A stretch of 53,623 nucleotides of DNA from Lachnospiraceae bacterium (GTDB lineage: Bacteria; Bacillota; Clostridia; Lachnospirales; Lachnospiraceae). Of this stretch, positions 12,747 to 22,814 are shown one piece after another (within the stretch, counting starts at the first letter, position 1; each line of letters begins with the position of its first letter). The notes beneath the pieces were generated by a model. The model had not been told where the DNA came from. It worked only from the letters and a program-made list of their open reading frames with translations, and made no database searches. The stretch lies in NCBI GenBank assembly GCA_024681795.1, contig JAILAD010000049.1:1-53623 (forward strand). Direction: 5' to 3'. A program made the position numbers and the translations under genes.

Positions 12747-12790
12747 ACAGGGCTACAAGGATTCGAACCTTGAAATGACGGAGTCAGAGT
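12747..12790. repeat. attL: displaced 3' half of tRNA-Gln
   Basis: This 44-nt stretch is identical to 22771-22814. On the minus strand it carries the anticodon-loop edge, T arm (GGTTCGAATCC) and acceptor 3' strand of tRNA-Gln, but lacks the 5' half, so it cannot make a tRNA. Element sequence begins at 12791. Confidence 0.92.
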
Positions 12791-12853
12791 ACTTTATCAA
12801 AATTGCTTCTATTACAGTATTCATCGGCTATTCAGCCGGCATATTTTCTCCAA

Positions 12854-12871
12854 ATGACAATTTGTATGACA
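12854..12871. repeat. Left arm-type repeat of the element
   Basis: ATGACAATTTGTATGACA lies 63 bp inside attL and recurs at 22602-22619 with one difference, in the same orientation. It contains two ATGACA steps 12 bp apart. The position and pairing suggest integrase or excisionase arm-binding sites. Confidence 0.6.
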
Positions 12872-12923
12872 GTTCATTTTTCATTCATTTTTTGAGCTGT
12901 CAGTAATAAAGGAGAATCTGATA

Positions 12924-13973
12924 ATGTCAATTGAAATCACTATTCAAACCGGCAATCCTATCGTGGATGAAGTCGGACAGATAAACTTTTCCGGAAATAT
13001 TATTCCGGAATCCTGGTATAAAACCATTGTAGATGAAAATGGTAAACCAAATCTTCTCGCAATCAATATTCTGGCTGATATTGTATATTGGTACAAGCCT
13101 TCTGAAATCAGAACAGAAGACGGCCAGTCTGTCACATTTCAAAAAAAATTCGCCGATGAAGACTACCTGCAGCGCAGCTACGAGCAGTTGATAAAAAAAT
13201 ACAACTGTTCCGATTCTCAGGCACGTCGCAGTATTAAATTTCTGGAAGATATCGGTGTAATCAGAAGAATCTTTCGAACAATCACAACGCCAAACGGATT
13301 AATACCAAACGTAATGTTCATTGAACTTATCCCCGGAGTGTTAAGAGAACTGACCTTTCCACCCCAGAAAAACTTCCCGGACAAAAGGATTGCAGACCCA
13401 TCTCTGCATATTTGCAGAGACGTATCTGCAAATATGATAACACATCCCGACACGCCTGCAGAGACAAATACAAAGAATACTACAAAGAATACATCAAAGA
13501 ATATTACAACAACAGATTCTTCTGCAGTTGTTGTCTCAAATATCAAAGATTTCATACCTTCTTCCCTTCGGGAAAGAATAAGTGAAAGTGATTTCAAGGC
13601 AATTATAAATGCATCCAACGGAGATAAAACGATTATTTATAAAGCCTTTGAATATGCCAATAACTATTCCGGACCAATCGGAAACCTGGTCGGATTTATC
13701 ATTTCCTACATCCGGAGGGGCGGATTTACCTGTGTCACAATAGATCACAAACCACCCAGGAAGCAGAAAAACAACTTCACGACTCACAACTACTGCATGC
13801 CTTTTCTAGAATGGACCGAGAAACACAAGGACATGAGCGATGATGATTGGTTGCAGGCAGCGGAGCAAGTCCTTGGATATCATTTATCAGAATCCCAACG
13901 AAATAGTATTCCTGAAGTCTACCATCTGCTTGAATGCAGATTCCGGGAATTGGAAACACAAAAAGCTATTTAA
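12924..13973 (+). CDS. Replication-initiator-like winged-helix protein
   Basis: A 349-residue protein, first gene inside the left end. The N-terminal 130 residues (IIPESWYKTIV, then a helix-turn-helix-like YNCSDSQARRSIKFLEDIGVIRRIF) have the look of winged-helix replication initiators and phage replisome organisers. A Thr/Asn-rich linker (residues about 175-200) leads to a C-terminal region ending PEVYHLLECRFRE. It may let the excised circle replicate, or regulate excision. AAGGAGAA lies upstream of the ATG. The family assignment is tentative. Confidence 0.55.
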   Translation: MSIEITIQTGNPIVDEVGQINFSGNIIPESWYKTIVDENGKPNLLAINILADIVYWYKPSEIRTEDGQSVTFQKKFADEDYLQRSYEQLIKKYNCSDSQARRSIKFLEDIGVIRRIFRTITTPNGLIPNVMFIELIPGVLRELTFPPQKNFPDKRIADPSLHICRDVSANMITHPDTPAETNTKNTTKNTSKNITTTDSSAVVVSNIKDFIPSSLRERISESDFKAIINASNGDKTIIYKAFEYANNYSGPIGNLVGFIISYIRRGGFTCVTIDHKPPRKQKNNFTTHNYCMPFLEWTEKHKDMSDDDWLQAAEQVLGYHLSESQRNSIPEVYHLLECRFRELETQKAI

Positions 13974-13997
13974 TAAATCAATTTGGAGGTAAAAACC

Positions 13998-14456
13998 ATG
14001 GAAACACGAAACACTTTTCACAACAGCACAAACGAGATTATCGAAGAATCTATCTCTACTACCCGTATGACAAAAGCTGATTTACTTCAGAAAACTGACG
14101 AAGAGTTGCTTCAAATGATTGCAGTTGCATCCGGTCATACCGGAAAAGATTTTCGGGATTACATGAATTGCGATTTTTCCTACAACGTTCTTACGAGTCA
14201 TCTTAAAGAGCGCGGCTACGAAATGGGCTGGCATAAATCTGACAGGAATTCTTCTACGAAACCGGTAGTGATTCAGATGAAAAAGTCTGACGAAGCTATG
14301 ATACGACAGTCTTATATGCTGGAGAAATCCATCGCCGATGAATGGAAATCCTTCAACAAAAATGTGCCATATAAGTCAGTCACGCTCGGATATGCTCTCC
14401 GCAGATTTATGAGCGACGTTCAATCCGGACGAATCATCTTTGAGCTGCAATTATGA
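13998..14456 (+). CDS. Element-encoded protein of unknown function
   Basis: A 152-residue soluble protein if started at the ATG at 13998, which has GGAGG 8 nt upstream; a TTG at 13983 lies inside that ribosome binding site. It contains a predicted helical N-terminal part and a C-terminal stretch (MLEKSIADEWKSFNKNVPYKSVTLGY) reminiscent of small DNA-binding or relaxosome accessory proteins, but I do not recognise a family. It lies between the initiator-like gene and the structured region before mobC, so a role in transfer or replication is plausible. Confidence 0.65.
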   Translation: METRNTFHNSTNEIIEESISTTRMTKADLLQKTDEELLQMIAVASGHTGKDFRDYMNCDFSYNVLTSHLKERGYEMGWHKSDRNSSTKPVVIQMKKSDEAMIRQSYMLEKSIADEWKSFNKNVPYKSVTLGYALRRFMSDVQSGRIIFELQL

Positions 14457-14990
14457 GCTGCCCATCCTCGCGAATGCTCGCCCTTAATCGGGCGAGGCGT
14501 GGTGAATCCTTCTCTCTTTGGCATCAAAGCAGATTTCCATCCGGAAATCGCATTGATACCTCCGCTCGAAGACTTCGCCACGCAAGACCACAAACAACCC
14601 CCGCGGATGCCCCCGGCTCGCCGCTTGGCTTATTGGGGTTGTTAGGCAAGTTTCGCATAGTGGCAAGCCACCATGCACCGCTCCATCGAAAAAGCCGTGT
14701 GGCTTTTCCGCTTCCGCTAAACTTGCCAGAGGGGCCCGCCCCCTTGGATCCCCCGGCAAGGGTTTCACCCTCTGCACACCGGAGCACACTCACTGACTCA
14801 GGATATGTCGAAAGGTCCACCGGACCTTCCTCCATTCCCTTCCGTCAGTTCGTTAGTGGCTTTGCCCCTGCACCCCACCAAAGAGTTGAACCCTTTGGAT
14901 TCCCGCTTACCGCACGTGCCATGCATCTGTTTATGTATGGACGCCTGCAAATGTTTTACTCACTTGTAAACACAGTCTATGTATAAATCG
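14457..14990. ncRNA. GC-rich structured non-coding region, candidate RNA and/or oriT
   Basis: This 530-bp gap is much richer in G+C than its neighbours and is packed with compact hairpins: 14477-14496 (7-bp stem), 14660-14671, 14690-14707 (7-bp stem, 4-nt loop), 14759-14771, 14812-14828 (7-bp stem, 3-nt loop) and 14878-14898. GGCAAGTTT (14645-14653) pairs with AAACTTGCC (14719-14727), enclosing two of them. Frames across it are Arg/Pro/Ser-rich on both strands and look non-coding. Its place just upstream of mobC fits an origin of transfer; the nested stems fit a long structured RNA. Strand is not certain; plus is more natural with the flanking genes. Confidence 0.55.
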
Positions 14991-15010
14991 AACGAAAGGA
15001 GTTTTACCAA

Positions 15011-15403
15011 ATGAATAAAGTAAATCGTCGCCGTAATCGCGCTGTCACTATACGTATGAATGAAGCAGAGTATACCGATTTCATGAACCGGGTGGGTGAA
15101 TCCGGATTATCACAGCAGTCCTATTTTATTAACGCAGTACGTGGAGCCACCATTACCCCGTCTGATGAAATCTCCGCACTCAAAGAGATATCTAAAACCT
15201 TTGCAAATCTGGAGCGGCAGCTTCGCGGACTGGCAACCAATGTAAATCAGATGGCTCATGTTGCAAATGGTCGCGGAGAATTTCCAACGGAAAACGACCT
15301 GGAACGTTTATCGGATCAGTTAGTCAATTATCGAAGGGAGAGTGAATCGCTATGGCAATCAATAAGGTTGTTAATAAATCAACAAAAGCCCACGGGGCAA
15401 TGA
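15011..15403 (+). CDS. mobC: MobC-type relaxosome protein
   Basis: A 130-residue protein starting MNKVNRRRNRAVTIRM. The basic N terminus and the following ribbon-helix-helix-like region (residues about 10-45) should bind the origin of transfer. The region LERQLRGLATNVNQMAHVANG is the MobC family signature, and a helical C terminus follows. AAAGGAG lies upstream. It overlaps the relaxase start by 52 nt, the usual mobC-relaxase arrangement. It recruits the relaxase to the nick site. Confidence 0.88.
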   Translation: MNKVNRRRNRAVTIRMNEAEYTDFMNRVGESGLSQQSYFINAVRGATITPSDEISALKEISKTFANLERQLRGLATNVNQMAHVANGRGEFPTENDLERLSDQLVNYRRESESLWQSIRLLINQQKPTGQ

Positions 15404-16314
15404 GAAACTCCATTGAATATGTTTTAAAAGACAAAAAGATTCTGGACGGGTTTGTTGATATTACCGGTCCATACAACGCAGATACTCTGAATTACGACGA
15501 TATCTACCGGACCTGGCTGGAAGAAAAAAGACTTTGGGATAAAGACTCCGGAAGAATGTATGCCCACAACATCATCAGTTTTCACAAAGATGAACAGATT
15601 ACACCCGAACAGGTGCTGGAATTCGGCAGACGATTTGCCGAGGAATTCTTCCCGGATCATCAATGCCTGATTGGAGTTCATCAGGACAGGGACCACCTGC
15701 ACTGCCACATCCTTACCAACTCTGTTTCCTATATCGACGGTCGGAAGTTACATCAAACGAAAAAGGATTTGGAAAAGCAGAAAGAGTTTACCAATAATCT
15801 CTGCCGGGAGAAAGGTCTGACGGTTGCCGAAAAGGGTAAACATTTTGACGGAACCGATATTGAAGTCGGACACGTAACCGCCTGGTCAAAAGATAAATAC
15901 AATTTGGCAATCAATGCTTCCAAGAAGCCGTTTGTTGTGGAATGCTTCGCTGCCATTGAGGAAGTAAGGAAGATTGCAAAAACCGTAGAAGATTTCATCA
16001 GCAGAATGCTGGAAAAAGGATGGACGGTTACATGGACGGAAAAGAAGAAGCACATCACTTTCCAAAACGAAAACGGCGATAAAGTCCGGGACTCCAATCT
16101 CTCAAAAACCTTTAATGTCGATGTCAGTAAGGAATCTTTGGAGAAAGACTTCCTGCAGAATTCCAAGGCAAAAGACAAACCCCGAACCAGTATTCGTGCC
16201 AAACTGGAAGCTGCCAAGAAGCAGGTGGCGGAAGATAACAAGCAAAGAAAACTCGAGGCACCGGAGTTGGATCTTACAAAGAAAAACAGAAATCGAAACC
16301 GAACAGAAAGATAA
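15352..16314 (+). CDS. MOBP-type relaxase (mobilization nuclease)
   Basis: A 320-residue relaxase. It nicks one strand at oriT through a tyrosine and pilots the DNA to a recipient. The metal-binding three-His motif is clear: HQDRDHLHCH with His115, His117 and His119 following His110. The probable catalytic Tyr lies in the N terminus (IEYVL, Tyr23). After about residue 280 the protein is Lys/Arg-rich. Relaxases of this family are often 400-550 residues, so this one is short and lacks extra C-terminal domains. GGGAGAG lies upstream of the ATG, within mobC. It is expected to act only with a helper conjugation system. Confidence 0.9.
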   Translation: MAINKVVNKSTKAHGAMRNSIEYVLKDKKILDGFVDITGPYNADTLNYDDIYRTWLEEKRLWDKDSGRMYAHNIISFHKDEQITPEQVLEFGRRFAEEFFPDHQCLIGVHQDRDHLHCHILTNSVSYIDGRKLHQTKKDLEKQKEFTNNLCREKGLTVAEKGKHFDGTDIEVGHVTAWSKDKYNLAINASKKPFVVECFAAIEEVRKIAKTVEDFISRMLEKGWTVTWTEKKKHITFQNENGDKVRDSNLSKTFNVDVSKESLEKDFLQNSKAKDKPRTSIRAKLEAAKKQVAEDNKQRKLEAPELDLTKKNRNRNRTER

Positions 16315-16318
16315 TATA

Positions 16319-16352
16319 ATGCGGTACCATACAATACAATATGGTACCGCAT
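16319..16352. terminator. Hairpin after the relaxase gene
   Basis: Arms 16319-16331 and 16340-16352 are perfect 13-bp reverse complements (core TGCGGTACCAT) around an 8-nt loop. It lies 5 nt after the relaxase stop. Only a weak T/C stretch follows on the plus strand, so it may protect the mRNA end as much as terminate. Confidence 0.6.
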
Positions 16353-16420
16353 CTTTCCCTCTTGCACTTATTGTAAAAAAGCTTGGATTGTTATAATAAT
16401 ACTTCCCATTAGGATAACAA

Positions 16421-17311
16421 TCAGTCTATCTTTTCCAGCAGATATCCATAAGAGCACGGCACATCGCCTGAACTTTCCTCTTCTGATGTGAGGAATCTCG
16501 TAAGTTGATCCCACTGAAGAAATCCCGCCTCGTCAACCGGAACATAAATTCTGCCTGTGTTAACTCGATAATGGTGTTCTTCCGTGCTTCCATCTTTAAA
16601 GGTAACTACAATGGTAATTTTCGCTCCGTTTACCTGATCTACATCACTCCAATACGCTTCTCTTAAATCATAGCTATCACTCCAAAGGTTTTCCGGGACA
16701 GACATTCCAAATGAAACTTTGTCATTATATGTATCCTCATATGAGTTTCCCTCCACCACCAGATGCTCATAATGGAACGATGTCGGTTCTGTAGCATGTT
16801 CTTCATCGTATTCAAACTCCTCGTCTACAATCATTTCATACATTTCAGTTCCACTTACTTCTCCGATTTTGGCTTTCTCAAAATCCGGATCGCCTTTATA
16901 AATAGGCAAGGCTGAATAAATATTGCATTTATCCGTAGATATTTTTACTTTACTTATATTCTTTCCGGATATCGCAAATCTTTGATCTAGAAATAGAGAA
17001 CTGCCATGTCCGGCAGAATAACTATTAAGCCCAATAACATCTCCTGAGACGGTTTTCTCCGGCAGTTCAGCCGCATATGCTGTTATAGCAAAGATATTCC
17101 TACCTCCATTTTCATCGGGTTTTGAATGTCCGAGAAAATATCCGCCAGTAATAACAAGCGTCAGCGCTGCACAGGTGGCTAATCCGACAGCAATAATCTT
17201 TTTTGCGTTCATTTTGTTTTTCCTAACCTTTCTCCGAATTTGTATCTCTGAATCCCTGATTTCTGGAGCTAGGGCCTGCTTAAGGATTTGATTTAATCTT
17301 TCATCTGTCAT
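16421..17311 (-). CDS. Membrane anti-sigma factor, cognate of the ECF sigma
   Basis: A 296-residue protein. About 40 N-terminal cytoplasmic residues (LNQILKQALAPEI to KKIIA) precede one membrane helix (residues about 40-60), then a large outer domain beginning FAITAYAAELPEKTV. The layout and the 11-nt overlap with the sigma gene identify it as the anti-sigma partner of the DUF4179-like sort. It should hold the sigma factor at the membrane until a signal arrives. The outer domain is acidic with no recognised ligand site. Confidence 0.75.
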   Translation of the reverse strand: MTDERLNQILKQALAPEIRDSEIQIRRKVRKNKMNAKKIIAVGLATCAALTLVITGGYFLGHSKPDENGGRNIFAITAYAAELPEKTVSGDVIGLNSYSAGHGSSLFLDQRFAISGKNISKVKISTDKCNIYSALPIYKGDPDFEKAKIGEVSGTEMYEMIVDEEFEYDEEHATEPTSFHYEHLVVEGNSYEDTYNDKVSFGMSVPENLWSDSYDLREAYWSDVDQVNGAKITIVVTFKDGSTEEHHYRVNTGRIYVPVDEAGFLQWDQLTRFLTSEEESSGDVPCSYGYLLEKID

Positions 17312-17843
17312 ATCCTACTGCCTCCAATTCTCTTTTCAATACTTGTTTCGCTTTGTTCATACGACTTTTCACGGTCCCTTCCGGCACTTGCAGTATTTGT
17401 GCAATCTCTTTGATTGACATTGATGACGAATAAAATAAATAAATCGGCAATCTGAACTTCTCCGGCAAATCTGCAACCGCCTGCATAATGATGGTTCGCT
17501 CTTCCTCTTTTAAAACAGCATCTTCTGGAGATGGGCCTACATCATCGACGCTTGATAGCTTCTCCTCGTCTTCTAAACGATTTGTACTATCCATAGGTAC
17601 TATTCGATTTCTGTTCGCATATTTTTTCCTTCTGTTCTTCCAAAGCAAAATTGATACGGACAAGGCATAACTTTTTAAATTCCTTCCGAAATCTAATCGT
17701 TTTCGCTTTTCCAATAACTTAAGCATTGTGTCTTGATACAACTCATCCCCCAATTCTTTATCACCAGACGTCATTCTGCAGAATCGAAGAATATCTTTCC
17801 CGTTATCTTGAACAAAATGCTCGAATTCCTCGTTACTCAACAA
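17301..17843 (-). CDS. ECF-type RNA polymerase sigma factor
   Basis: A 180-residue sigma factor with region 2 (DILRFCRMTSGDKELGDELYQDTMLKLL) and region 4 (LPEKFRLPIYLFYSSSMSIKEIAQILQVPEGTVKSRM, a helix-turn-helix for -35 recognition); regions 1 and 3 are missing, as in ECF sigmas. The start is a TTG at 17843 or 17840, after an AAAGG-containing leader. It is encoded with an overlapping anti-sigma gene inside the mobile element, so host signals may control element genes, or the pair may be cargo. Its target promoters are not identified. Confidence 0.88.
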   Translation of the reverse strand: MLSNEEFEHFVQDNGKDILRFCRMTSGDKELGDELYQDTMLKLLEKRKRLDFGRNLKSYALSVSILLWKNRRKKYANRNRIVPMDSTNRLEDEEKLSSVDDVGPSPEDAVLKEEERTIIMQAVADLPEKFRLPIYLFYSSSMSIKEIAQILQVPEGTVKSRMNKAKQVLKRELEAVGYDR

Positions 17844-17972
17844 TCGTTATCCCTTTCCTTTCCCTTATCAGTCGACTATAAGTTTTGCCCTTACACTTAT
17901 ATATTGTCGTCAATTTATATTTGGTTCATTTTTACTTTTTCCCTAATCCGACTACGCCGGCAACTCCAAATA

Positions 17973-18011
17973 AGAAAACCGCAAGCCATACATTGATGGT
18001 CTGCGGTTTCT
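17973..18011 (-). terminator. Terminator after the XRE-DUF3592 gene
   Basis: Nearly complementary arms GAAAACCGCAAGCCAT and ATGGTCTGCGGTTTC flank a short loop. On the minus strand a T-rich stretch follows. It lies between the XRE gene stop and the sigma start, so the two are separate transcription units. It may work in both directions. Confidence 0.65.
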
Positions 18012-18056
18012 CATTCAAATGATTTCCATTCCCCGAATCTTCGTTTAGAAGTTTTT

Positions 18057-18815
18057 TTACTTATTGGATTTTTTTCTTAATTGCACAATACCAACACCAT
18101 TCATAATAACCTTGGCAAATCCCAAAACGGACAGTGCAACTAAAACTGCACCAAGCACCGTAATAGGGATTTTGTAGTATCTGAGCACATCATCCATACT
18201 GTGCGGCAGGCGCATCTCCGTGGGATTATTGGGATTAATTTTTATTTTCATTTCTGAACCAATGGGATAGGACTGCTCAATATCTGAAAAGGAAAAATCC
18301 ATTTTGGAAGTATAAGTGGTTCCCTTATATCGGTATTCTATCGTAGGAAAGGATAAATCATAATTACCTTTTTCATAACTTACAATCTTTGCCTTAACCG
18401 TTTTGGTATACTTGTCCGAAGTGATTCTTCCGCCCATAGGCGGTATCATAATCAAACCATATACCGCCAGAATCGCTCCGATAACAAAGGTCAAAATGGT
18501 CAAACCAATCAGAATGAATGTTTTCTTTAGCATTCTTTTTTCGGCCTTCGTATAATCCGCAACCATGGTTAGTGTTTCTTTCATGTCCTTATCCATATTC
18601 TCACTCTTCCTTTCTCCGTTCAGTAATTCGCGGATATCCACTTCAAAATAATCGGCCAGTTCAATAATCAGGCTGATATCCGGCATGGTTTTTCCGTTTT
18701 CCCATCTTGAAATTGATCTTGAGGACACATTAAATACTTCTGCAAGCTGTTCCTGAGACATATTACGTTCTTTTCTTAATTCCCGCAGGAATGCTCCGAT
18801 TTTTTCCTGATCCAT
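18057..18815 (-). CDS. XRE regulator with membrane-bound DUF3592 domain
   Basis: A 252-residue protein. Residues 1-65 are an XRE helix-turn-helix (LRELRKERNMSQEQLAEVFNVSSRSISRWENG). A linker, a membrane helix (about 100-122), a beta-rich DUF3592-like segment (YTKTVKAKIVSYEKG to MRLPHSM) and a second membrane helix near residue 220 follow. It is a membrane-tethered DNA-binding protein that may sense envelope conditions. AAAGGAGG lies before the ATG. Its own promoter region, 18816-19057, is 242 bp; no other gene is convincing there. Confidence 0.8.
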   Translation of the reverse strand: MDQEKIGAFLRELRKERNMSQEQLAEVFNVSSRSISRWENGKTMPDISLIIELADYFEVDIRELLNGERKSENMDKDMKETLTMVADYTKAEKRMLKKTFILIGLTILTFVIGAILAVYGLIMIPPMGGRITSDKYTKTVKAKIVSYEKGNYDLSFPTIEYRYKGTTYTSKMDFSFSDIEQSYPIGSEMKIKINPNNPTEMRLPHSMDDVLRYYKIPITVLGAVLVALSVLGFAKVIMNGVGIVQLRKKSNK

Positions 18816-19057
18816 AGCGACCTCCTTTCAAGAAAAAAAATATGTGAAAATATGAATAATGAACACGACAGAGGGTGAGAGTATGTATTTTTTCTACCTG
18901 ACAAGAATGTCTTATATACTTGAATCCTATTCCGTTTCTTTACTAATCTTCTATTCCATCAGGTTCTTCAATTGGATTAATAATCATTCCTTCCTCTCCC
19001 TTGTATATCTGTAAATCCGGCATTTCTTCGGTTTATTATACATTTGCTCATAATCTA

Positions 19058-20149
19058 TTATATGACATTTTCATCAATCCACTCCTGCAGTTTTTCCTTT
19101 AGAAGCTTTTTATCCGGCAGGTATAGCTTGTATTCCTTTGCGTATATATTTGTATTTTCCGGTAATGTCAATTCTACTAAAGCTTCATCACTTTTCTTGC
19201 ACATCAGAATTCCTATTGTGGGGTTCTCACCCTCAATGATTTCATATCTGTCATAATAATTAACATACATCTGCATTTGTCCCAAATCCTGATGCGTTAG
19301 TTCATCCACTTTAAAATCAATCAATACATAACAACGCAAAAACCGATTATAGAGAACCAAATCACAATAGAAGTTTTTATCGTTGAATGTAAAACGGCGT
19401 TGTCTTTTTTCAAACAGGAAACCTTTTCCCATTTCAAGAAGGAAATCCTGGAGTTTATTTAATACCGCCGCTTCCAAATCATCTTCATGATAGCTACTTT
19501 TATCTTCAAGTCCAACAAATTCCAAAACGTATGGTGTTTTCAAAATATCTTCCGGACTATATGGCATAGCTCCCTGCTCTGCCATAGCCATAACATCGTT
19601 CTTGTCTCTACTTAATGCCAAACGCTCATAAAGACTAGAATGATACTGTCTCTTCAACGTTTTTACATTCCATGCACCCTTTATAGCTTCTAATTCATAA
19701 AAGTTTCGTTCATTTGGATCTTCTATCGTCATTAAAACCTGATAATGTGTCCAACTCAGCTTAAAAGGAAAGTTTTTATAATCCAACGTCAATTGTCCAA
19801 TTCCAGATTGGACAATTCCGTTTTCCTGTATCACACCTAATTGTCCAATTCCCGATTGGATAATTTCTTCATCACGATCTCTATATGTCATATAGAATTT
19901 ACGCATTCCGGCAAGATTACTTCTTGAAAAACCGCGGCCGTATTCATTTGTCAAATAATTCGACAGGGAATCCAAAACTTTTTCCCCATACTTAGCACGT
20001 TCTGACCCCATCTGTTCTTCTTCGAATATATATTTTCCAAGCAGAAAACTTGTATACACGGTCACTGTATTCGCAATATACCCCAGACCGTTTCTTGCAT
20101 TTTCTATTAAAGTCCTTGACTTTTCAAATAATTCGGAAAAATCATTCAT
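19058..20149 (-). CDS. PDDEXK nuclease, YhcG / DUF1016 family
   Basis: A 363-residue protein. The N-terminal DUF1016 domain (LGKYIFEEEQMGSERAKYG, then FSRSNLAGMRKFY) precedes a PDDEXK nuclease core: NFYCDLVLYNRFL followed by CYVLIDFKV, giving the Asp and DxK catalytic set. Such proteins cleave DNA, possibly Holliday junctions or foreign DNA, and are widespread in mobile elements. An odd insertion repeats IIQSGIGQL and IVQSGIGQL at residues about 96-119, with inverted-repeat DNA. An XRE gene lies 98 bp upstream on the same strand. AGGAGA precedes the ATG. Defence or element-maintenance role is inferred. Confidence 0.82.
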   Translation of the reverse strand: MNDFSELFEKSRTLIENARNGLGYIANTVTVYTSFLLGKYIFEEEQMGSERAKYGEKVLDSLSNYLTNEYGRGFSRSNLAGMRKFYMTYRDRDEEIIQSGIGQLGVIQENGIVQSGIGQLTLDYKNFPFKLSWTHYQVLMTIEDPNERNFYELEAIKGAWNVKTLKRQYHSSLYERLALSRDKNDVMAMAEQGAMPYSPEDILKTPYVLEFVGLEDKSSYHEDDLEAAVLNKLQDFLLEMGKGFLFEKRQRRFTFNDKNFYCDLVLYNRFLRCYVLIDFKVDELTHQDLGQMQMYVNYYDRYEIIEGENPTIGILMCKKSDEALVELTLPENTNIYAKEYKLYLPDKKLLKEKLQEWIDENVI

Positions 20150-20247
20150 AATTCATTTTCTCCTGCTTTTTTCATTTTGGAACGCAGTTAGCGATCCAAA
20201 AACACCCTAACCTTTTTACGCTTCCTTCCAAAAATATCGCACTTTTT

Positions 20248-20868
20248 CTATTCCTCGTCTTTAAGACCATCCAACTGCTTTTGCAGTTCCGCAATTTGTT
20301 CCTGAAGCTTTTTCATGCGGGCTTCCTTTAATACTTCTTCCGACCGGTCAACCAATGCATTCGGAAATGTCCATTTCCACATGTCATAATCGTGACGGAT
20401 TGCATTCCTTTCCTCTTCGTTTCCGGCTTCATTTATTTCTTCCTCAATGAATCGGCATTCTTTCTCCCACTCGTCGATTTGGGAATTAATCGGACCGGTA
20501 GACCCGTCTCCAAACATTAGTATCAATCGACCATCTACACGGCGTACCTTGAGGTCATATCTTTTTTCCATTTCAAAAAGAGAATACATTGCACCCTCGT
20601 ATGTACAAACAATCGGATCTGCAAGAGCCTGCGTTTCAACTCCCAGTGCTTTTGCAATCTGTTTTAATAATTCCAATTTAGGCTTTCTGGTTCCCTTTTC
20701 ATACTTCTGAATGCGCTCACCTGTCAATCCAACCCTTTTTCCGAGTTCAACCTGGGATATGCCCTGCGACATCCTGATTTCCCTTATTCTCTGACCAACT
20801 CTTTCCGCCGAATGCTTTTCGCTGATTTCCAAGGGGTCCATGCCACCAATATTGTTAACAACTATCAT
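20248..20868 (-). CDS. XRE family transcriptional regulator
   Basis: A 206-residue protein from the ATG at 20868, which has GGAGG 7 nt upstream; a TTG at 20886 is unlikely. The helix-turn-helix covers about residues 22-75 (REIRMSQGISQVELGKRVGLTGERIQKYEKG). The rest is helical, ending in a Gln/Lys-rich coiled-coil (LQEQIAELQKQLD). It is divergent from the excisionase gene, with facing promoters in a 223-bp gap, so it is likely a repressor that controls excision and perhaps the nuclease gene downstream. Confidence 0.85.
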   Translation of the reverse strand: MIVVNNIGGMDPLEISEKHSAERVGQRIREIRMSQGISQVELGKRVGLTGERIQKYEKGTRKPKLELLKQIAKALGVETQALADPIVCTYEGAMYSLFEMEKRYDLKVRRVDGRLILMFGDGSTGPINSQIDEWEKECRFIEEEINEAGNEEERNAIRHDYDMWKWTFPNALVDRSEEVLKEARMKKLQEQIAELQKQLDGLKDEE

Positions 20869-20912
20869 TGCGCACCTCCGATTCAAAAACTGTAGAATTA
20901 CAATTCTTTTTC

Positions 20913-20940
20913 ATTTTATCACAAATCAGTCGTATGTAAA
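20913..20940 (-). promoter_or_regulatory. Promoter of the XRE gene
   Basis: On the minus strand TTTACA (20940-20935) and TAAAAT (20918-20913) are separated by 16 nt, 45 bp before the start codon. The short palindrome GTAC-N6-GTAC near 20980-20993 and CATTT-containing repeats between the two promoters could be operator sites. Confidence 0.6.
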
Positions 20941-20993
20941 AGGACAAAAAAGAACCATTTGAGGAACATTTTTGAAATAGTACATTTTTGTAC

Positions 20994-21022
20994 TTGCATA
21001 TACACATGCGTCGTGGTATTAT
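20994..21022 (+). promoter_or_regulatory. Promoter of the excisionase-integrase genes
   Basis: TTGCAT (20994-20999) and TATTAT (21017-21022) are separated by 17 nt. It faces away from the XRE promoter, typical of a lysogeny-like switch in integrative elements. Confidence 0.6.
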
Positions 21023-21091
21023 CTAAATAGTTCTAACATGTACTATAATAGTTCATCCAAAAAAACAATTCTAAGAAAGGAGCACAGATTT

Positions 21092-21289
21092 ATGAATACA
21101 AACGATGATTTTCAGGTTCTTAAAGTAAAAGACATCATGGAACGATTGGGCATTGGGAAAGACAGGGCCTATGCCTTAATGAAATCCAAATCATTCCCCT
21201 CAACGCAGCTTGGGAAAACATATTTTGTTACAACGGTGAAGTTCGAGGAATGGCTTGAAGCCAATGCCGGTAAAAATGTCAATCTTTGA
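21092..21289 (+). CDS. Excisionase-like MerR/AlpA-type DNA-binding protein
   Basis: A 65-residue protein starting at the ATG at 21092 with AAAGGAG upstream; an earlier ATG at 21038 lacks a site. FQVLKVKDIMERLGIGKDRAYALMKSKSFPSTQLGK is the winged-helix family signature of small excisionases. It bends DNA at the element ends and steers the integrase towards excision. It lies 71 bp before the integrase gene and is divergent from an XRE regulator. Confidence 0.8.
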   Translation: MNTNDDFQVLKVKDIMERLGIGKDRAYALMKSKSFPSTQLGKTYFVTTVKFEEWLEANAGKNVNL

Positions 21290-21360
21290 ATTAGCAAATA
21301 ACCCAATTAGCAAACGAAAACCAGAGATACTTACAAACAAACCAATGGAGGAAAAAGAAA

Positions 21361-22587
21361 ATGAAACGACGAAAGAACGGAGAGGGTTCCTTTGAACATC
21401 TCCCCGATGGCAGAGTCAGAATGAGAAAACAACACGGCAATCTTCCTAATGGCCGTCCTCAGATTCTGACTGTAACAGGCAAATCTGAAACAGACTGTCT
21501 CAAGATGATGAAAAAAAAAGAGGCGGAATATGAAAACTGCTACAACAAGGAAAAAATAGCAAAAACAATGACACTGGCAGAATTATGCTATGCTCATTTG
21601 GATTTTCACGTTGGGGAAACGAATCGGCTCAAACCCAAATCCAGGGACCGCAGGGAGGGAACAATACGGAATCAGATTGAAAAATACCCGATCGGAAGAA
21701 TGCAGGCGTTTTCCTTAACCGGCGATGAAATCTATAACCATATCGTGATGCTGATTAATTTAGGAACCCTTTCCATATCTTCCGTAGAAAAAACATACAA
21801 CGTAATTAATTCCGCCTATAAATGGGCAGTAGCCAAAAAGTACTATAAAGAAAATCCTTGTTTGGAAATGGCAGATGAAATAAAAGACATATTCAAAAAA
21901 CTGGAAACTAAAAATAGTTCCGACGGTTTTGTCACCATTCTGTCAGATGACCAAATAGAATCATTAAAACAATACTCCGAAAGTCTAGGCGATAAGTGTT
22001 GGCATCAAAGAATGATGCCGCTTAGCTCAGTCGTTCTTTTAGAGGCAGGGCTGCGGGAAGGTGAATTCTGTGCATTAAGGAGACGAGACTGCTACTCTTC
22101 CGGCGAAAAATATCTTATCGATATTAACAAAACCCGCAACATTATTGAAAACAGAGACAAGAAGGACGAGGATACTTCATTTGTCGCCAACGAGAACGAG
22201 GTAAAAAACTGGCACAACCGTACCATTATACTGAATCATGATGCCACGGTTGCTCTGTCGGAAATGTTACGCATCTCTCCTCTTACCGATCCTGATGATT
22301 ATGTTTTACTCAACCGAAGAAAGAAACCATCCAACCCTTCAAACTTCGATAAAAACATTAAGACACTTTTTCGCAGAATCGGATTTCCGGACGAAATATC
22401 AGGGGCACATATTCTCCGGCGCACGTGCGCCACTCAAATGTACGATAATGGTTGCTCCATCGAAGATATTGCCGCCTATTTGGGAGATACCCCGGAGACA
22501 ATCCTAAAACACTACATTTCATTAACCAAAAAAATTGTGGTCGGCAACAGTATAAAAAATGCCGTAAATTATCCTACAAAAAAATAA
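21361..22587 (+). CDS. int: Tyrosine recombinase / site-specific integrase
   Basis: A 408-residue integrase. The N-terminal arm-binding region (NGEGSFEHLPDGRVRMRK) and a SAM-like core-binding domain precede the catalytic domain. The residues Arg232 (EAGLREGEFCALRR), His350 and Arg353 (HILRRT) and Tyr385 (ILKHYI) are present; the second His position is changed (GDTPET). It joins the element to the tRNA-Gln 3' half. GGAGG lies 8 nt before the ATG, and copies of AATTAGCAAA lie just upstream. It ends 183 bp before attR. Confidence 0.92.
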   Translation: MKRRKNGEGSFEHLPDGRVRMRKQHGNLPNGRPQILTVTGKSETDCLKMMKKKEAEYENCYNKEKIAKTMTLAELCYAHLDFHVGETNRLKPKSRDRREGTIRNQIEKYPIGRMQAFSLTGDEIYNHIVMLINLGTLSISSVEKTYNVINSAYKWAVAKKYYKENPCLEMADEIKDIFKKLETKNSSDGFVTILSDDQIESLKQYSESLGDKCWHQRMMPLSSVVLLEAGLREGEFCALRRRDCYSSGEKYLIDINKTRNIIENRDKKDEDTSFVANENEVKNWHNRTIILNHDATVALSEMLRISPLTDPDDYVLLNRRKKPSNPSNFDKNIKTLFRRIGFPDEISGAHILRRTCATQMYDNGCSIEDIAAYLGDTPETILKHYISLTKKIVVGNSIKNAVNYPTKK

Positions 22588-22601
22588 AACAAATACTTCA
22601 T

Positions 22602-22619
22602 ATGACAATTCGTATGACA
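22602..22619. repeat. Right arm-type repeat of the element
   Basis: ATGACAATTCGTATGACA matches the left-end copy at 12854-12871 with one difference. It lies between the integrase stop and attR, 151 bp from the core. A likely arm-binding site for integrase or excisionase. Confidence 0.6.
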
Positions 22620-22738
22620 ATACAAACAGAAAATATGCTAATTATTTAGTCTGAATTAGAAAAAAACTGCTGATTAGTCGGATGAATAAACAACCAAAAC
22701 AAGATACTCTGAATCGACGAAAAGCCTTTAAATACAAG

Positions 22739-22769
22739 AAAAAAGGGACTTCAGAAATACTGAAGTCCC
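22739..22769 (-). terminator. Element-borne terminator of tRNA-Gln
   Basis: GGGACTTCAG (22745-22754) pairs with CTGAAGTCCC (22760-22769), followed on the minus strand by six T. It is nearly identical to the displaced terminator at 12701-12723. The element therefore carries both the tRNA 3' half and a terminator, restoring a complete gene on insertion. Confidence 0.85.
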
Positions 22770-22770
22770 A

Positions 22771-22814
22771 ACAGGGCTACAAGGATTCGAACCTTGAAAT
22801 GACGGAGTCAGAGT
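22771..22814. repeat. attR: 44-bp core repeat inside tRNA-Gln
   Basis: Identical to 12747-12790. This copy is the 3' half of the intact tRNA-Gln and was brought by the element. The crossover took place somewhere within these 44 bp. Confidence 0.92.

Follow-up and report, generated by a model that had tools for sequence, protein, structure and literature searches.

In the mob region of the staphylococcal plasmid pC221, a CTTGCC motif follows a repeat, and we take this to be the pC221 nick. Nick sites listed for other Gram-positive relaxases include CTTG^CA (pRS01, pS7a and pS7b), TGCTTG^CCA (pRJ6) and RYGCTTG^C (Tn1549) (PMC7755788, Table A3). For the pWBG749 family, a repeat, IR2, has been described that varies among oriT subtypes (PMC8136818), and in staphylococcal oriTs a recombination product served to narrow a nick (PMC4652767). 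PcfF of pCF10 binds inverted repeats of its oriT (PMC6514445), and the sgm-sRNA of SGI1 is a non-coding determinant of a mobilizable island (PMC9299015). We analyzed a 53,623-nt stretch of DNA from a Lachnospiraceae bacterium, here called the window, in which the region at 14457-14990 is very probably the origin of transfer (oriT) of an integrated mobilizable element. In the open-licence literature, where most subscription papers are absent, we found no paper on this type of oriT.

The GC-rich region beside mobC

The integrated mobilizable element spans 10,068 bp (12747-22814) between identical 44-bp direct repeats, the left of which (12747-12790) is its attachment site and the right of which (22771-22814) is the end of a tRNA-Gln gene. 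A tyrosine integrase gene (21361-22587, plus strand; Pfam) adjoins the right repeat and the tRNA-Gln gene and is preceded by an HTH_17 excisionase-like gene (21038-21289; Pfam). Directly downstream of the GC-rich region lie mobC, which encodes a NikA-like/MobC relaxosome accessory protein (15011-15403, plus strand; Pfam PF21983 and PF05713), and a gene for a relaxase of the MobA/VirD2 nuclease family (15352-16314, plus strand; Pfam PF03432, E 2.1e-31). The relaxase carries HQDRDHLHCHILTN, a histidine pattern expected of MobA/VirD2-type enzymes. When compared to the corresponding proteins of pC221, the relaxase was 30% identical over 245 columns (E 1e-24) and MobC 23% identical over 117 columns (E 8e-7), both E-values being those of single comparisons. 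The two genes upstream of the region (12924-13973 and 13983-14456) had no family match in Pfam or NCBIfam; by eye, the former resembles plasmid replication initiators. The cargo of the element includes a gene (17301-17843) that looks sigma-factor-like by eye.

The GC content of 14457-14990 was 0.552, compared to 0.402 for the element, and the highest value among 8,465 segments of equal length elsewhere in the element, none overlapping the region, was 0.453, in agreement with the original prediction of a GC-rich region in an AT-rich element. Across the whole 53.6-kb window, 425 of 53,089 such segments were as GC-rich, segments over the region itself being counted in. The region had also been described as packed with hairpins, and both strands indeed fold better than shuffled sequence: with RNA parameters, 554 nt of the plus strand gave -200.2 kcal/mol (z -5.4) and the minus strand -235.9 kcal/mol (z -7.5), and none of 100 shuffles was as good for either strand. 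With DNA parameters, 14581-14910 gave z -3.6 for the minus strand (1 of 100 shuffles as good) and z -3.2 for the plus strand (0 of 100). The long reading frames across the region had been taken for mere shadows, and this was borne out. The 177-aa plus-strand frame had no Pfam or NCBIfam match, and alignments of 14644-14983 contained frame-shifting indels in all nine relatives and in-frame stops in seven of the nine. A protein-coding gene was rejected on these grounds, and 14457-14990 is non-coding.

A search with MobC as the query led to 30 named loci, 22 of which bear Lachnospiraceae in their title, and homologous DNA containing GGCAAGTTTCGCA was present upstream of mobC in all 30. A covariance model, R1, was built on 33 cores, which were chosen by motifs in the helix P1 described below and by GGCAAGTTTCGCA, making the invariance of GGCAAGTTTCGCA among them a matter of construction; the alignment omits near-identical cores and one locus (L006) with a 33-nt insertion in hairpin A. 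This insertion is seen at a single place recorded as both L006 and L059, and the outer stem of the hairpin stays paired around it. R1 gave 16 matches in 13 of the 299 family genomes, our own genome included, and each of the 16 lay just upstream of a mobC match and on the same strand as mobC. Of the 21 mobC matches with E <=3.4e-18, 16 have an R1 match and the other five (L039 to L043) a diverged copy, in which by eye the P1 arms have changed yet still pair; 13 weaker mobC matches (E about 1e-8) had no R1 match. A mobC match was found beside the core in 41 of 41 loci, at an anchor-to-mobC distance that ranged from 109 to 484 nt and was about 110 nt in compact loci; the open reading frame at 13983-14456 was found in the sequence available for 13 of the 41, the window included. 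There is overlap between the 30 named loci and the family matches (L059 and L006, L072 and L015, and L075 and L008, for example, are apparently the same record), and counts over sequences do not represent independent events.

Searches of the whole class with R1, run with stricter filters that lose weak matches, were positive in three of 391 genomes: our own and G108, both already known, and one new weak match (30.9 bits) in a genome of another family, G729, where a core-like hairpin set lies at about 1651-1750 (L102/L141). No MobC was found by tblastn in the 3.1 kb of L102, and no relaxase was seen among the open reading frames of the 10.6-kb contig of G729; this hairpin set is perhaps an orphan oriT. 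Neither the window region nor the core of a relative gave a DNA match in the plasmid or phage collections, and no MobC match was found in viral contigs. Upstream of four distant MobC homologues (L044, L045, L047 and L053), inspection by eye showed GCAAG, followed at some distance by a GGGG-loop-CCCC hairpin that has a C-run.

Paired changes and the strand that folds

Judging from the relatives, the conserved and best-supported part of the region is 14581-14753, which is narrower than 14457-14990. It begins with the block CGCAAGACCACA (14581-14592, plus strand), which is 92-100% identical in all eight relatives compared and forms the left border of hairpin P0 (14593-14643). The P0 arms (14593-14601 and 14635-14643) flank a 33-nt loop and vary among relatives with their pairing kept: 26 different 9-nt arms occurred across 40 loci, with loops of 9 to 108 nt. 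The mean complement of a P0 arm to the upstream DNA of its own locus was 8.04 of 9, compared to 6.29 for the arms of other loci, and none of 5,000 permutations reached the observed value. This permutation of own arms against those of other loci is the fair test of P0, because the P0 stems used for the wobble counts came from a best-complement search, and on this evidence P0 is our strongest case for conserved structure. Wobbles in P0 showed no clear strand bias (10 versus 8 of 422 cells), in a count that left out the three of 37 rows scoring below 7 (L063, L064 and L082). One of these, L064, has an evident short-loop P0 despite its score. Two further mob modules in the genome of the window, on contigs C22 (L142) and C33 (L143), also have a core beside mobC, and their P0 hairpins differ. 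By eye, the P0 arms flank a promoter-like -35/-10 pair before the mob genes in the Waltera plasmids, pCD-METRO and a Fusobacterium plasmid (L106, L108, L109 and L110). We also considered binding of P0 by the product of 13983-14456 and rejected it: the protein was found in 13 of the 41 loci, and its identity correlated with that of the P0 arm at rho 0.46, compared to 0.50 for MobC (78 pairs).

Next to P0 lies helix P1 (14645-14727), the 9-bp pairing of 14645-14653 with 14719-14727 that had been noticed in the original prediction; it is present and, as had been claimed, has two hairpins inside it (14655-14676 and about 14687-14710). P1 is nearly invariant and says little about structure because it hardly varies, partly because the cores were picked by P1 motifs. 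Within it, hairpin A (14655-14676, minus strand) lies just 5' of the predicted nick and shows both covariation and G.T wobbles on the minus strand only, and hairpin B (14678-14717) is optional, being absent in the compact relatives L015, L071, L073 and L074. Hairpin C (14731-14741) and the CTTGGATCCCC that follows it take up 14731-14753; paired changes occurred in three of its four pairs, and by eye it has a counterpart in related plasmids. Its loop is a purine triloop on the minus strand in 23 of the 33 cores and not in the window, and any meaning of these triloops is only suggestive. Beyond hairpin C, 14756-14905 holds hairpins E (about 14757-14775), F (about 14812-14832) and D (14878-14898), which are perhaps accessory-protein sites or a priming site. 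Hairpin F was found in 25 of 38 loci in a search by its own motif that had no shuffle control, and in most of these its stem was kept with changed letters.

Covariation among homologues had been proposed as a check, and paired changes were found in P0, A, B and C. Standard pairs made up 94.4% of the cells of P1, A, B and C in the 33 cores. The covariation score of these four helices was 0.127, compared to 0.055 in shuffles (0 of 500 reached it) and at most 0.044 when slid, and hairpin A alone scored 0.197, compared to 0.070 in shuffles (again 0 of 500). The count of further pair types was no higher than in shuffles, 460 of 500 of which reached it for P1, A, B and C and 495 of 500 for hairpin A alone, and for hairpin A alone the pairs with a change on both sides were not above shuffles (368 of 500 reached the count).

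The wobbles also bear on the choice of folding strand. Of the 296 cells of hairpin A, 17 were G.T on the minus strand, and thus A.C on the plus strand, and none were the reverse; in hairpin F, 21 wobbles favored the minus strand and 7 the plus strand, of 259 cells. The resulting rates of about 6% for A and about 8% for F are near the rate in tRNAs from this genome (31 structures, 53 of 665). Hairpin B gave 5 versus 4, no clear strand bias. The core was more stable on the minus strand in all 33 sequences with DNA parameters and in 32 of 33 with RNA parameters. Taken together, the wobble bias of A and F and the greater stability of the minus-strand core indicate that the minus strand appears to be the strand under selection to fold.

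The predicted nick and rival explanations

Reading along the minus strand, one meets hairpin A, then GAAA and then CTTGCC, and we place the predicted nick (nic) between 14646 and 14647 of that strand (5'-GCGAAACTTG^CCTAAC-3') from the motif match, the layout in relatives and a homology breakpoint. If the region is an oriT, this is likely to be the exact nick. The predicted site has CTTG^C in common with the listed nick sites of Gram-positive relaxases. The assignment is not unique, since CTTG^CC is found at two other places, the hairpin A loop (minus strand) and a plus-strand position following hairpin B. The original prediction had suggested looking for a nick near 14960-15010, which falls within a less conserved stretch (14906-15010, 54-82% identity in eight relatives), and the favored site lies instead at 14646/14647. 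An IncP-type nick (YATCCTG) was considered and rejected: TATCCTG is present on the minus strand near 14798-14804 but is altered in L056 and L057.

When we searched strictly for a stem without breaks, then four bases and CTTG[C/T], we found this layout in four of eight sequences, compared to 0 to 5 of 100 shuffles of each. Three of the four (pTRACA73, pCD-METRO and one Waltera plasmid) had it on the minus strand, and pC221 had it on the plus strand; the window and the Cetobacterium, Fusobacterium and second Waltera plasmids had no match in this search, the window owing to a wobble within its hairpin A. The pTRACA73, Waltera and pCD-METRO sequences also matched on the plus strand (6-bp stems, CTTGT) because the stem of hairpin A is a repeat. 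By eye, pTRACA73, the two Waltera plasmids, pCD-METRO and the Fusobacterium and Cetobacterium plasmids have a similar order of parts upstream of their mob genes: P0 arms, GCAAG or ACAAG, an inner stem, CTTG, hairpin C and a C-run.

The same motif marks a breakpoint in homology. When the window was compared to L056, whose MobC is 91% identical, 100 of 100 positions were identical to the right of GG^CAAG and only 35% of 40 positions to its left, where both P0 arms and the loop had changed together. Among the 37 pairs that were at least 90% identical on the right, the left side was at most 60% identical in 16 and higher in 21, and seven other pairs showed the reverse, with the left side alike and the right side unlike. 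Averaged over the 37 pairs, identity on the left was 57-64% for the loop and 83% for the arm, from which it follows that the sharp step belongs mostly to the lineage of the window. Changes in loop length contribute to the divergence of the left side. Recombination at the nick would be a simple account of the breakpoint.

The region lies next to a MOBP-type relaxase gene and an accessory gene, contains a CTTG^C motif and has an inverted repeat 5' of the predicted nick on the strand that would be cut, as expected of an oriT. The original prediction had named an oriT but thought the region too complex for one, leaning instead to a large structured RNA. The motif, the breakpoint and the linkage to mobC favor the oriT. 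The RNA is the less favored of the two because no Rfam family was found, no promoter-like site is present in 14300-15150, the linkage to mobC is constant, and the nick motif lies at the base of hairpin A with the breakpoint at the same place. In the Rfam 15 search of the whole window, only the tRNA reached its gathering score, and a permissive search of 14300-15100 gave two matches far below the cut-off. One such RNA would be transcribed from the minus strand, divergently from mobC, and would act on mobilization or on the upstream gene as an antisense or scaffold RNA, for which the SGI1 sgm-sRNA provides a precedent (PMC9299015); we consider it improbable. The main point in its favor is that the wobbles of A and F lean to the minus strand at tRNA-like rates. 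By the general signs of a structured RNA, covarying helices with wobbles on one strand, hairpins A and F would qualify; P0 and B are without strand bias, and the P0 arms are almost without wobbles. The minus-strand fold (z -7.5) is also in keeping with it, as are promoter-like minus-strand sites between mobC and the core in 16 of 41 loci, compared to 8.0 expected from mononucleotide shuffles. However, 12 of these 16 sites in relatives have only 9 of 12 matches, and their positions differ; 14300-15150 of the window has no promoter-like site on either strand and no terminator-like site on the minus strand; and the anchor of compact loci is about 110 nt away from mobC. Such an RNA would also leave the nick motif and the breakpoint unexplained.

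Two other explanations concern the plus strand and replication. A plus-strand leader or attenuator of the mobC-relaxase mRNA would fit the position upstream of mobC, and what lies between the P0 arms of some related plasmids resembles, by eye, a promoter of the mob genes. We nevertheless hold it to be very unlikely, the least probable of these readings, because A and F wobble on the opposite strand; promoter-like plus-strand sites were also no more frequent than expected, either from the core to mobC (3 of 41 loci, 4.2 expected) or in the 150 nt before the core (1 of 41, 2.4 expected), and the distance from the anchor to mobC varies between 109 and 484 nt. An origin of replication, or a single-strand (lagging-strand) origin, instead of or next to an oriT has slightly less claim than the minus-strand RNA. 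Hairpin arrays are typical of single-strand origins, the strand that folds is the one that would be transferred, and a replication-initiator-like gene (12924-13973, by eye and without a family match) lies upstream. It is mobC, however, that was matched beside every core, compared to 13 of 41 loci for the frame at 13983-14456, and the nick motif and the relaxase layout fit an oriT. The two are not exclusive, since a role of hairpins D to F as a single-strand origin would be compatible with an oriT.

Proposed mechanism and comparison with known systems

The region is thus best explained as an oriT that belongs to the pC221-like relaxase group and has an unusual, GC-rich and multi-hairpin form. 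After excision of the element, MobC would bind repeats in the region and recruit the MobA/VirD2-type relaxase, which would recognize hairpin A, the proposed recognition hairpin, and cut the minus strand four bases on, between 14646 and 14647 (5'-...GAAACTTG^CC-3'). The relaxase would stay on the 5' end and later rejoin the ends. The minus strand would be exported leftwards, to lower coordinates, and for this reason the mob genes would enter the recipient last; hairpin P0 would be on the leading side of the nick and hairpins A, B and C on the trailing side. The analysis itself shows the conservation, the paired changes, the linkage to mobC and the relaxase, the motif match, the breakpoint and the strand bias of the wobbles. 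The binding of MobC, the nicking, the direction of transfer and what P0 and hairpins B to F do are all inferred. By analogy with the varying repeat of the pWBG749 family and with the inverted repeats bound by PcfF of pCF10, P0 may likewise be a recognition tag. A bolder proposal is that a conserved multi-hairpin particle, formed by the transferred strand or by a minus-strand RNA of the same sequence, straddles the nick and that P0 is a type tag that determines which relaxosome or helper can use the element and is swapped from one element to another by recombination at the nick; this is unlikely.

For a family of mobilizable elements from Lachnospiraceae of gut and rumen, these results provide an oriT and a nick that are predicted precisely enough to be tested, together with a covariance model that finds them. 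Strand-biased wobbles make it possible to ask, using sequence only, which oriT strand has to fold, and a P0 that is variable yet self-complementary raises the question of how transfer systems recognize their own substrates.

When compared to described systems, the region is like the SGI1 sgm-sRNA in being a non-coding determinant of a mobilizable element beside an oriT (PMC9299015); the mobilization proteins of SGI1 are unrelated, and the region in the window is not known to be transcribed. With the pWBG749-family oriTs of Staphylococcus aureus it shares an inverted repeat of varying sequence, and replacement of the oriT by recombination has been proposed there (PMC8136818), but the nick of that family is different (PMC4652767) and the comparison is one of oriT features only. 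The plasmids pCD-METRO, pTRACA73 and the two from Waltera (LC817945 and LC817946), whose records have no oriT annotated, have by eye the same series of P0 arms, TGCAAG, hairpin A, CTTG, hairpin C with a C-run, and mob genes; unlike in the window, these form a single compact unit without further hairpins. The staphylococcal plasmid pC221 has a homologous relaxase (MobA) and MobC and the same succession of inverted repeat, four bases and CTTGCC. Membership of the pC221 relaxosome family would accord with the homologous proteins and not with the orientation of the oriT relative to the mob genes, which differs: pC221 has one 8-bp repeat with its motif on the mob-coding (plus) strand, whereas the region in the window is GC-rich, has at least six hairpins, carries the favored motif on the minus strand and includes, on the leading side, a second hairpin of variable sequence.
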